64,000 nt of DNA from Haloplanus sp. GDY1. Lineage in GTDB: Archaea > Halobacteriota > Halobacteria > Halobacteriales > Haloferacaceae. The translations under genes were made by a program, and so were the position numbers. Where the stretch lies: contig NZ_CP098514.1 in assembly GCF_023703775.1 (NCBI RefSeq), positions 310,001-374,000 on the forward strand, in the 5' to 3' direction. Of this stretch, positions 44,780-48,813 are shown in pieces. The notes beneath the pieces were generated by a model. That model made no database searches. It had not been told where the DNA came from and was given only the letters and a program-made list of their open reading frames with translations. Numbering within the stretch: position 1 is the stretch's first letter; every line of letters begins with the position of its first letter.

Positions 44780-44834
44780 GGTCGGTTTCGAGACATAAGA
44801 AGTATTATCAGTGCCCCTTCCGTGAACGAAGGTG

Positions 44835-45551
44835 ATGGTCGCGGGTGGTGGGATGGGACCCGACGACGAGGGGATTAGCTTCGCGCACGCGTTAGCGACG
44901 CTGAAAGAACAGGGGAGTGCGCTGCTCGTCGTCGGGACGGTTCCGGACGAGATGTTCGCGAAGGCGTCGGCGACGATGCTCGGCGACCCGGCGGCCGACC
45001 CCCCGCGGCGCCGACTCGTCGTGACGCCGGAGCCGAACCGAGAGAGCGCGGTGCGCCGACTCCGCGAAACCGGGCCGCTCTCCTCGGAGTACGCACGGCT
45101 GATCACCCGGGGGGAGCAGGCGCGAAGCGCCGCCGCGGGGGGAGCGTCGCTCGACGAGGTGACTCCCCGGACGCACGTCATCGACGGGTCGATCCACGAA
45201 CTCGGGACGACGATCGCCGACGTGATCGAGGAGTTCGACCTGTTCGCGGGCGGCCTCGACCCCGCGGAGTTCCGGATGGGCTTCGAGTGCCTCCCGACCC
45301 TGCTCTCCGCCCACGGCCGCGAGACGGCGTTTCGGTTCCTGCACGTGGTCGTCGCACAGGCCCGGGCGGTGTCCGGACTGGTCCACTTCAGGCTCCCCCG
45401 CGACGTCGATGCGGAGGTCGTCAGGCTGTTCCAGCCGCTGTTCGACGCCACCGTCGAACTCCGGATCGACGGAGGCAGCCTGGATCAGCGGTGGCACTTC
45501 CGGGATCGGGACATCACGTCGGACTGGCTCCCCGTGGGCGATCCGACGTAA
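44835..45551 (+). CDS. DUF7504-like haloarchaeal protein
   Basis: 238 residues from the ATG at 44835; a GTG lies three bases earlier. The pattern is FAHALATLKEQGSALLVVGT near the start, then RRRLVVTPEPNRESAVRRLR, with HVIDGSIHELGTTIADVIEE and FECLPTLLSAHGRETAFRFL. It resembles a degenerate RecA/KaiC-like fold without a P-loop (I find no GxxGxGK[ST]). This family is common in haloarchaea next to signalling genes. An AT-rich promoter (aagtattatc) lies about 30 bases upstream. The CHAT protease gene is 59 bases downstream on the same strand. Confidence 0.68.
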   Translation: MVAGGGMGPDDEGISFAHALATLKEQGSALLVVGTVPDEMFAKASATMLGDPAADPPRRRLVVTPEPNRESAVRRLRETGPLSSEYARLITRGEQARSAAAGGASLDEVTPRTHVIDGSIHELGTTIADVIEEFDLFAGGLDPAEFRMGFECLPTLLSAHGRETAFRFLHVVVAQARAVSGLVHFRLPRDVDAEVVRLFQPLFDATVELRIDGGSLDQRWHFRDRDITSDWLPVGDPT

Positions 45552-45610: not shown

Positions 45611-47731
45611 ATGAGTCGAACCGAGCGGCCGAACGGGTCCGCCGTCGAGACGGACGGTGACCCCCTCGAAGTGTCGTTTACCACGCTCGACGACGAACCG
45701 GGACTGGTCGTCACCGACCTCATCGAGCGCAACCAGTTCCGGCTGTTCACCGACCGTCCGGTTTCGCCGACGCCGGTGGACCCCGCCGGTCATCGGTTCC
45801 CCATCGACGCGGCCGTGGCCGTCGACGCCGCGGAGATCGATCTGCCGACCGTCGTCTCCGTCTGCGTCCGCGACGAGAGCGGCGAGATGCTGGCCGAGAC
45901 CGAACACTTCGCCTACGAGGAGTTCCCGCCGGGGAGTTACAGCCTCGAACTCTGTGGCCCGATCAAGATCTACCTCCGGATCGAGGGTCCCGTCACGGTC
46001 GCCTCGGACGTGACACGCACCCACATCGAGTTCGACGGCACCCGCGAGGTCCGGGTGGGCGCCCGCTCGCACCACGAGGGTCCGGCCGCCACCCTCACGA
46101 CGACCGACGACCCCGTCGACGTGATGGCCGCCGTCTCGGAGTTCTCCTCGGCGCTCAAGACCGTCTCGCCGGAGCGATCCTATCCGACGCTCCGGGGGCA
46201 CCCGCCGCTGGTCGAACTCGGCGACCGGTTCGAGGTCCCCGACGGCGTGGTGTCGCCCGAGACGGGAATCAGGCTCGAACTCCCGCCGGCGTATCGATCG
46301 ATCTACGTGGCGACCCCGCTCGCGTACTACCTGGCGGCCGACGTGGTGCCGGGCGACCGCCCGCGACTCGTGACCGACTCCGGGTTCGAACACGACCTCG
46401 ACACGATGCGGGGGTTCGAGACGGAGGTCGAACGCGTCCTCAAGCAGACCTTCTTCCTCGACTGCGTGACGCGGACCGAGGGGTACTACTCGGTCGACCT
46501 CCACGAGCGGTCGGCCGTCGAGACTGACCTCGACCTCGACTTCGGGTGGCTGTACGACCAGCCGCTCGCGACCCAACTGGAGGAGTACCTCTCGGTTCCC
46601 TTCGGCGCCGTCGAGGACGAACTCCCGGAGTGGCGGCTGACGTCCCACGTCGCGCCCACACCGGAGAACGTGGAACTGCTGCCGTTCGTGACGAACGACC
46701 TCGCGGTGGTCCGGACGCCCCAGGATCAGCCGGAGCCGAGTTCGGAGGTCCAGACGGCCGCCGCCGACGAGTTCTTCCGCGACGCGACGTTCACCCGGAG
46801 CGCGGCGGCCGAGGAGTCCGCGCGGTCGTACGTCCAGCCGGAGACGGCCGACTCGCTCGAACAGTCGTGGGTGGGCGAGGGCGCCCCCATCGGCGCCAGC
46901 AAGGCCACCACGGCCGCCTTCTACAACCGACTCGATCGGACGCCCGCCGACGGGGACATCGGCATCACGGTCGTCTGCAACGACTCGCGCATGGCCGACG
47001 AACGCGACGTGGTCGACGAGGTGTACGGCTCGCGGGAGGAACTCCCCTTCGACGTGTCCGTCCACCACGACCTGACGCGGCAGGATCTGCGCGAGGTGCT
47101 CTCCGCGGAGTCGGATCTCCTCCACTACATCGGGCACATCGACGCGGCGGGCTTCGAGTGTGCGGACGGCAAACTCGACGCGACGACGCTCGAACGCGCG
47201 GGGCTCGACGCCTTCCTGCTCAACGCGTGCCAGTCCTACGAGCAGGGCTCGGCCCTCATCGACGCGGGCGCCATCGCGGGCATCGTCACCCTCTCGGACG
47301 TCATCAACAGCGGCGCCGTCCGGATGGGTCGGATGCTGGCGCGCCTGCTCAATCAGGGATTCACCGTCGGGAGCGCCCTCGAAGTCGCACGCGGCGACTC
47401 GATCATCGGGGAGCAGTACACCGTCATCGGGGACAGTAGCCTGTCGCTGGCCCAGACCGACGGCGGCCCCCCGAACGTCTGTGTGGTCAACAGCCGCGGG
47501 GACGGCTACGAACTCAACTGGCAGACTCACCCCTCCACCTCGTTCGGCATGGGGAGCCTCGTGATCCCGTGGATCGACGACGTCGACGAGTACCACCTCT
47601 GGTCGGGCGATTCCAGAACCTTCGAACTCTCCCGCGAGGAACTGCAGCAGTTTCTCTCCCTGGAGACGGTGCCGGTGAAAATCGACGGCTCGCTGGTCTG
47701 GAGCGACGAACTGGACCTGTCCGATCTTTAG
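45611..47731 (+). CDS. CHAT-domain (caspase-like) protease
   Basis: 706 residues. Residues about 1-420 form an unrecognised beta-rich N-terminal region. The C-terminal CHAT domain has the catalytic dyad His509 (LLHYIGHIDAAGFE) and Cys540 (AFLLNACQSYEQGSALIDAG) with the following conserved strand AIAGIVTLSDVINSG and helix (MGRMLARLLNQGFTVGSALE). CHAT proteases cleave specific protein substrates and often trigger cell death or defence. No TPR is seen in the N-terminal part. It has its own AT-rich promoter at about 45575-45590. The stop overlaps by four bases the convergent small repeat protein gene, which may be its substrate. Confidence 0.85.
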   Translation: MSRTERPNGSAVETDGDPLEVSFTTLDDEPGLVVTDLIERNQFRLFTDRPVSPTPVDPAGHRFPIDAAVAVDAAEIDLPTVVSVCVRDESGEMLAETEHFAYEEFPPGSYSLELCGPIKIYLRIEGPVTVASDVTRTHIEFDGTREVRVGARSHHEGPAATLTTTDDPVDVMAAVSEFSSALKTVSPERSYPTLRGHPPLVELGDRFEVPDGVVSPETGIRLELPPAYRSIYVATPLAYYLAADVVPGDRPRLVTDSGFEHDLDTMRGFETEVERVLKQTFFLDCVTRTEGYYSVDLHERSAVETDLDLDFGWLYDQPLATQLEEYLSVPFGAVEDELPEWRLTSHVAPTPENVELLPFVTNDLAVVRTPQDQPEPSSEVQTAAADEFFRDATFTRSAAAEESARSYVQPETADSLEQSWVGEGAPIGASKATTAAFYNRLDRTPADGDIGITVVCNDSRMADERDVVDEVYGSREELPFDVSVHHDLTRQDLREVLSAESDLLHYIGHIDAAGFECADGKLDATTLERAGLDAFLLNACQSYEQGSALIDAGAIAGIVTLSDVINSGAVRMGRMLARLLNQGFTVGSALEVARGDSIIGEQYTVIGDSSLSLAQTDGGPPNVCVVNSRGDGYELNWQTHPSTSFGMGSLVIPWIDDVDEYHLWSGDSRTFELSREELQQFLSLETVPVKIDGSLVWSDELDLSDL

Positions 47732-47937
47732 GGGCCGGAGATGCCGCCGCCGTTGCCGTCGGCGTTGTAGGGGCCGGAGATGCCGCCGCCGTTACCGTCG
47801 GCGTTGTAGGGGCCGGAGATGCCGCCGCCGTTGCCGTCGGCGTTGTAGGGACCGGAGATGCCACCGCCGTTGCCGTCCGCGACGGTACCGCTCTCTTCTC
47901 GGGACGCTGCCACCGTGCCGCTATCACTTTCGGACAT
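47728..47937 (-). CDS. Small repeat protein: four units of a 13-residue repeat
   Basis: 69 residues from ATG at 47937. The N-terminal 20 residues (MSESDSGTVAASREESGTVA) are Ser- and acid-rich with a repeated SGTVA. Four units of DGNGGGISGPYNA follow; the last ends at Pro. The DNA units are 39 bases and nearly identical, with only one or two silent differences. The protein is Gly-rich, probably unstructured, with no signal peptide. It sits tail-to-tail with the CHAT protease gene and has its own promoter. A substrate or regulator of the protease is a strong guess, unproven. Confidence 0.7.
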   Translation of the reverse strand: MSESDSGTVAASREESGTVADGNGGGISGPYNADGNGGGISGPYNADGNGGGISGPYNADGNGGGISGP

Positions 47938-47963
47938 CGCAACTCATCCGTCCGCCGGCAACG

Positions 47964-47973
47964 AATTATAATT
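47964..47973 (-). promoter_or_regulatory. TATA-like promoter of the repeat protein
   Basis: AATTATAATT sits 27 to 36 bases upstream of the ATG at 47937, in a strongly AT-rich patch (47964-48045) that contrasts with the surroundings. The spacing fits a leaderless or short-leader haloarchaeal transcript. Confidence 0.55.
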
Positions 47974-48115
47974 TTTCGAGAATATCTGATAGTAAATATA
48001 ATCAATTAAAGCAATTGACTACTGACATAAAATGAGGAAAACCCCAGATCGACGGAGTGAGGGGAGGGAGACGCGGAAAACGGGGGAGTGGAGCGCGAAC
48101 GTATAGGGTATCTAA

Positions 48116-48700
48116 TTATTCTTCGCCGTCGTCGCGAGCGATGTCCTGATAGACGCGTGTCAGGTCGTCCGTCTCGCTGAGGCGTGCGAGCTTGTCGTCG
48201 AGTTCGTCCCGGAGCCGCTCGATGTCGTCGAGGAGTTGCTGGTACTTCTCGGAGCCCTCCAGTTCCTTCCGGTTCCGCTCGGATTCCAGCAGGGCCTTCT
48301 TCGAGGCGAGCGAGAAGAGTCGGCGCACGCCCTCGTCGTACTCGTCGCGGACGAGCAGGTTCGACACCGTCCGCGTGAGTTCCTCCCTCGACACCGGCTT
48401 GACCAGGTAGTCGTCGAAGCCCATCTCCAGTACGCCCGTGTCGGGTTCGACGGCGGTGACCATGGCGACCCGACAGTCGAGCCCTCGCTCGCGGAGCGCA
48501 TCGAGGACCTCGTCCCCCGAGAGGTCGGGCATCCGTCGGTCCAGCAGGACGACGCGCACCTCGTCCTCGAGCGCATCCAGCGCCGCCCGGCCGTCGTTCA
48601 CCGTCCGCACACGGTACGACTCGGCGAGCCACGTCGTGTAGAGTTCGGCCAGGTCTCGTTCGTCTTCGACGACGAGGACGAGCGGGTTCTCCTCGCTCAT
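48116..48700 (-). CDS. HalX-domain response regulator
   Basis: 194 residues from the ATG at 48700 (MSEENPLVLVVEDERDLAEL); an upstream in-frame ATG exists. The receiver domain has the acidic pair (VEDERD), phospho-acceptor Asp (VVLLDRRMPDLSG), Thr (VAMVTAVEPD) and Lys (DDYLVKPVSREEL). The C-terminal HalX helix (about 125-190) is a coiled coil (GSEKYQQLLDDIERLRDELD). HalX regulators have no DNA-binding domain and act by protein contact. It could be the partner of an unlinked histidine kinase. It lies upstream of the repeat-protein gene on the same strand. Confidence 0.9.
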   Translation of the reverse strand: MSEENPLVLVVEDERDLAELYTTWLAESYRVRTVNDGRAALDALEDEVRVVLLDRRMPDLSGDEVLDALRERGLDCRVAMVTAVEPDTGVLEMGFDDYLVKPVSREELTRTVSNLLVRDEYDEGVRRLFSLASKKALLESERNRKELEGSEKYQQLLDDIERLRDELDDKLARLSETDDLTRVYQDIARDDGEE

Positions 48701-48813
48701 GTGTCCTCCCGGAGGGGAGTGCGACCACTCACGACTGTTCATGTATCGTCGGAGTATATCAAAATACCCTTTGCGGAACCCCCCACGCCGCCGGATCCGA
48801 CGGCGTCACCGGC

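Follow-up and report, generated by a model that had tools for sequence, protein, structure and literature searches.

The source genome belongs to Haloplanus (G000, 3.4 Mb), and the window, by which we mean the whole 64-kb stretch of DNA that was analysed, carries a locus of four genes in the order DUF7504 (+), CHAT (+), repeat protein (-) and HalX response regulator (-). A preliminary description had reported that the CHAT protein keeps its His509/Cys540 dyad, that a convergent gene for a 69-residue repeat protein overlaps its stop by four bases, and that a HalX regulator lies on the far side. These three observations are confirmed by the features summarized here:

44832 to 45551, + strand: DUF7504 protein (PF24336, E 2e-51), 60 bases upstream of the CHAT gene
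45611 to 47731, + strand: CHAT (caspase-like) protein of 706 aa, defined by the ORF, a Pfam CHAT match and an AlphaFold model
45659 to 46090, + strand: CHAT residues 17-160, a beta-rich domain weakly resembling a galactose-mutarotase-like supersandwich (Z 9.0)
46091 to 46630, + strand: CHAT residues 161-340, a middle domain as conserved as the catalytic domain
46631 to 47455, + strand: CHAT residues 341-615, a predicted paired caspase-like fold as in separase and gingipain, from structural comparison
47135 to 47137, + strand: codon of the putative catalytic His509 (HYIGH motif), invariant in 57 homologues
47228 to 47230, + strand: codon of the putative catalytic Cys540 (NACQS motif), invariant in 57 homologues
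47728 to 47937, - strand: putative GP-tailed partner peptide, 69 aa, repeat form with four ADGNGGGISGP units, apparently derived from DUF7503
47729 to 47881, - strand: 39-bp tandem array encoding the repeated tails (TRF)
47938 to 47997, - strand: upstream region of the peptide gene, its AT-rich half nearly identical to that of a DUF7503-form gene in another Haloplanus species
48116 to 48742, - strand: HalX-type response regulator (E 2e-20), the next gene behind the peptide

The 706-aa protein scored 19.1 bits against Pfam CHAT (E 9e-4) and its sister L005 22.7 bits, both below the curated cut-off of 24, and a search of solved structures by sequence gave no match. In the AlphaFold model (pLDDT 87), the folds nearest to residues 341-615 were gingipain R (Z 18.3) and separase (Z 17.4); SAVED-CHAT (8tl0) followed with Z 15.3 over 167 residues and TPR-CHAT with Z 14.7, the matches to gingipain R, separase and SAVED-CHAT falling within residues 198-651. 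Residues H505, H509, N538 and C540 were unchanged across the 57 CHAT homologues. On the strength of the model, the protein is a CHAT with the clan CD cysteine peptidase fold and an intact His/Cys dyad, that is, a predicted peptidase. An acid (D/E563) is conserved in the putative S1 loop region and the folds nearest to the catalytic part are those of Arg-preferring enzymes (PMC4357240), which hints at a basic P1 residue. The N-terminal half matched no Pfam family and gave weak fold matches at most, the best being that of residues 17-160 with a GH2 domain (Z 9.0, Foldseek E above 0.006). Despite its very high conservation, which includes the motifs SALKTxSPERSYPTLRGHPP and FFLDCxTRTEG, the middle domain (161-340) matched no Pfam family and no clear fold.

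The convergent gene in Haloplanus

The CHAT and repeat-protein genes have bases 47728-47731 in common at their stops. The repeat protein opens with a leader of 19 residues, after which the 11-residue unit ADGNGGGISGP occurs four times with YN between the units, and its 39-bp array had a TRF score of 278, far above that of any other repeat in the window. The gene occupied the same position in 12 of 12 Haloplanus genomes, and its units differed from each other almost solely at synonymous sites, internal GP included. On these two grounds we consider the gene to be real, and the near-synonymous differences indicate that every unit is under constraint, not the last one alone.

The DUF7503 profile (PF24335) matched neither the repeat protein nor anything in the five Haloplanus genomes searched, while the peptide at the Haloplanus locus L182 matched it with E 5e-22. 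The repeat gene has in common with L182 the start MSESDSGTVAA, the tail NGGGISGP, AT-rich upstream DNA and the locus itself. Since upstream DNA, start and tail are shared, we believe that the repeat protein derives from DUF7503; as far as the alignments go, it is a DUF7503 protein minus the hydrophobic segment and with the tail multiplied.

Three of the 12 Haloplanus species (L182, L184 and L186) have the single-tail DUF7503 form, and nine have tandem tails without the hydrophobic segment, with 2-14 units (2, 4, 5, 7, 7, 10, 13 and 14, plus one array with masked bases). The internal GP is kept in all listed repeat units, and the residue that follows it varies (Y, F, M, S). The Haloplanus CHATs found with either peptide form were 81-90% identical to the 706-aa protein. 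Sisters L186 and L187 (support 100) carry different forms, and the Haloplanus tree implies at least two form switches, three on the nucleotide topology, support in the protein tree being weaker. By exchanging a single membrane-type tail for 2-14 soluble ones, the genus has run a natural experiment on what the partner is required to contribute. The repeat itself, taken at first for the key feature of the locus, is a Haloplanus derivative of DUF7503 and is replaced elsewhere by a single C-terminal GP tail; being genus-specific, it is ruled out as an essential feature. The Gly-rich repeat protein that had been expected near homologous CHAT genes was absent, and what we found instead was a more constant feature, a small ORF ending in GP.

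A Gly-Pro-tailed partner across haloarchaea

We compared 83 CHAT genes from 79 named haloarchaeal loci with the 488 other long genes within the same loci as background; the loci are related to one another, which deprives a p-value for this comparison of its usual meaning. A convergent small ORF ending in Gly-Pro accompanied 75 of the 83 CHAT genes, against one of the 488 others, in agreement with the earlier suggestion that the small protein is a dedicated CHAT partner. A convergent small ORF was present in all but one of the 79 loci, its offset from the CHAT stop ranging from -15 to +127 bases. Outside Haloplanus, most of these ORFs belong to Pfam DUF7503 (E 1e-16 to 1e-23) and usually encode 43-52 aa, with an NP[RK]M-like start, a hydrophobic stretch (median KD17 1.74) with an AxA-like end, and an uncharged tail (median 9.5 residues) that finishes in GP.

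The same ending recurred on other leaders, some of them hydrophobic and others not. The Halococcus partner ends in ..ACTYSGP on an unrelated leader, and those of L121/L122 in ..TSGP and ..TPGP, on unrelated leaders too; further unrelated leaders had the ends ..STSTGP (L228/L229), ..SPYTGP (L141/L142) and ..HPGP (L147). Partners of distant CHAT paralogues, with unrelated leaders, likewise end in GP. Three CHAT-linked peptides had no GP end (L069, L099 and L060, the latter apparently truncated). Every Gly codon and every Pro codon (four of each) is used for the terminal GP, as are the three stops, and this variety, together with the variable offset, argues for selection at the protein level and not for an effect of gene overlap; a GP imposed by overlap with the CHAT stop is ruled out, since codons and distance vary.

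By comparison of these loci, the CHAT and peptide genes travel together tail-to-tail, with an interchangeable leader and a constant C-terminal Gly-Pro tail. Very probably, then, the small protein is a dedicated partner that is read through its GP tail, and the repeat protein is one genus's multi-copy version of it.

The CHAT family was found in 364 of 392 Halobacteriales genomes and DUF7503 in 332 of 392. Outside this order, a phylum-wide sample contained the CHAT family in one family only (four genomes), and these four yielded no convergent GP-ending peptide. Within Haloferacaceae, the CHAT block occupies a constant position on the chromosome, flanked by an Lrp/aminotransferase pair on one side and guaB on the other. 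Of 78 loci, 24 have HalX as the next gene after the peptide, and DUF7504 adjoins 37 of 78 CHAT genes. The DUF7504 family is broad, with 10 copies in the source genome, so that it can be no more than an optional third component and has roles beyond CHAT; the count of 37 in 78 and the 10 copies both weaken it as a fixed one.

A second CHAT clade (clade B, motif NACGS) was seen at L124-L138 and L218-L237, where a TbsP-like regulator (PF19138) often follows. Some genera have a GP peptide of clade B's own, ending in STYGGP, and in others none was found; the partners at L138 and L218-L225, from one family, end in ..STYGGP or SSYGGP. Many clade-B CHATs with an intact dyad have no adjacent GP peptide, which means that not all CHATs require one. 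An inactive CHAT was ruled out as the reason for peptide-less loci, because the dyad is mostly intact there too. At L123, a divergent 52-aa hydrophobic ORF ending in AGYYGP lies about 210 bases upstream of CHAT, and the partner may sit there on the other side of the CHAT gene.

The CHAT paralogues of Halorussus and Haladaptatus are multi-copy, partly broken and in some cases plasmid-borne, which is rapid turnover. Genomes G114, G190 and G180 carry many CHAT paralogues, several of them split or broken by stops, and this suggests birth and death of the copies. A count of coordinates in six multi-copy genomes placed 38 of the 47 DUF7503 copies next to a CHAT gene or the remnant of one. G180 also has five near-identical DUF7503-like genes without a CHAT neighbour, dispersed near housekeeping genes such as hisS, and perhaps mobile or acting in trans; two of them (L212:1755-1889 and L213:1421-1555) encode a 44-aa product ending in GP. 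Further orphan GP-tailed peptides away from CHAT genes were found at L214:1403-1537, L215:1689-1823, L216:8346-8474 and L217:6002-6136.

Possible roles of the GP tail

Most likely, on these sequence comparisons, the GP tail is the element that CHAT recognises, as that of a dedicated ligand that is possibly also processed. We give about an even chance to the reading of the whole locus as a caspase-like CHAT protein with a dedicated micropeptide whose GP tail CHAT recognises as a ligand. The tail would dock in or near the CHAT active site or the conserved middle domain and, once docked, would hold or position the protease. In most genera one tail would be presented on a hydrophobic leader that forms membrane assemblies or oligomers; in most Haloplanus species 2-14 soluble tandem tails would replace that leader, and either arrangement would present many tails. 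A motif fixed at the extreme C-terminus cannot be a cut site, which makes it likelier that the end docks, acting as a product-like or tethering ligand. The conservation of the internal GP in the repeats would be compatible with multivalent binding as well as with a cut behind every GP. The existence of DUF7503 genes that have no CHAT gene next to them counts against the tail as a CHAT ligand.

Bacillus Phr/Rap offers a parallel for a second explanation, since Phr is a hydrophobic precursor of about 40 aa that ends in a short C-terminal tail and whose gene neighbours that of its target; the CHAT target, however, has a protease fold and is not a TPR receptor, and the genes are convergent, not co-directional. 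Similarly, the small protein might be a propeptide that CHAT or another protease cuts into GP-ended signal or effector peptides, and we propose that the Haloplanus form would then be a multi-copy precursor cut after each GP. The size of about 44 aa, the hydrophobic segment with its AxA-like end and the short uncharged tail are as expected for such a precursor. Cuts after the internal GPs, which are kept while the next residue varies, would leave each unit ending like the single-tail form, and the conserved internal GP is no less compatible with such processing than with a purely C-terminal ligand. Nevertheless, the Haloplanus peptides and some other leaders lack the hydrophobic segment and therefore have no obvious export route. 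Moreover, a Pro at the P1 position would be atypical of clan CD, whose members are reported to take Asp, Asn, Arg, Lys or Leu there (PMC4357240). Neither Lys nor Arg occurs in the repeat units, and with a basic P1 hinted for CHAT, this weakly suggests that CHAT may not cut them. We consider the precursor unlikely, if the best of the alternatives, and lean towards a partner that acts as a regulatory ligand and is not chiefly a substrate for processing, a view to which we give slightly less than an even chance.

Bacterial CHAT proteases release gasdermins, and a short hydrophobic DUF7503 peptide encoded beside a caspase-like protein could by analogy be a small membrane toxin, controlled or released by CHAT (or controlled by DUF7504). 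This is quite improbable, given that the hydrophobic segment is lost in nine of 12 Haloplanus species and absent from other partner types while the GP tail stays, and that the family is near-universal and chromosomal.

CHAT proteases act in several known defence systems, and the multi-copy paralogues of Haladaptatus and Halorussus, some broken and some plasmid-borne, would be in keeping with an antiviral module, a role at which the preliminary description had hinted. Nonetheless, PADLOC assigned the four genes of the locus to no convincing family, and no relative was found in phage records or viral contigs. A mobile defence island is made less likely by these results, by the near-universality of the family (364 of 392 genomes) and, in Haloferacaceae, by its fixed place among conserved housekeeping genes. 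Neither CHAT nor caspase is mentioned in a 2026 survey of immunity in archaea (PMC12988326). We hold the defence role to be very doubtful indeed. Mere coincidence of convergent neighbours in a stable region is exceedingly improbable: passive inheritance could account for the syntenic Haloferacaceae neighbourhood, but the adjacency also holds where the surrounding genes are unrelated and among paralogues dispersed across chromosomes and plasmids, and the GP end recurs on unrelated leaders.

Relation to known systems and to haloarchaeal caspase-like activity

Returning to the tail as a CHAT ligand, securin sets a precedent as the dedicated pseudosubstrate inhibitor of separase. Separase and gingipain R, the closest folds to residues 341-615, have no sequence relation to CHAT beyond the fold, and the partner here is a micropeptide. 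TPR-CHAT/Csx29 of type III-E CRISPR (Craspase) also combines a caspase-like fold with a dedicated small protein partner, but our locus has no TPR, Cas7-11 or Csx30, and the N-terminal half is different. SAVED-CHAT gave the best CHAT-type structural match to the catalytic half, although no SAVED domain was seen in the 706-aa protein and its partner is dissimilar. As to DUF7503 itself, most non-Haloplanus partners and that of L182 match the family and have the same place and the same C-terminal GP, whereas the 69-aa repeat protein does not match, and the Pfam entry gives neither a function nor a link to CHAT.

Caspase-like activity has been reported to be dominant among proteases in Haloferax extracts and very high in H. 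volcanii, with no gene assigned (PMC3615174). DUF7503 is present in H. volcanii, and the CHAT gene in other Haloferax species. In the same organisms a His/Cys caspase fold is near-universal, and the CHAT family is a candidate for this activity. There are two caveats: the H. volcanii activity prefers Asp substrates (LEVD, VEID), while D/E563 in the putative S1 region of CHAT would favour a basic P1, and the authors themselves raised the proteasome as a rival source (PMC3615174). What makes the candidate concrete is the combination of a near-universal family, an intact dyad and a constant micropeptide partner. Tentatively, and with some doubt, we suggest that haloarchaea have a caspase-like signalling of their own kind, in which a core protease would be controlled by micropeptides that share only a C-terminal Gly-Pro code while their leaders, whether membrane-type, soluble and multi-copy or of other kinds, are swapped around this constant tail; if so, this CHAT/micropeptide pathway may own the haloarchaeal caspase-like activity.

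In the open literature searched, there was no mention of DUF7503 or DUF7504, nor of the CHAT domain in connection with haloarchaea or H. volcanii, and the GP-tailed partner of CHAT is undescribed in that literature. Both DUF families thereby gain a context, and the CHAT/GP-peptide pair constitutes a testable regulator-or-substrate system. In public annotation, the peptides and most CHATs are labelled hypothetical.
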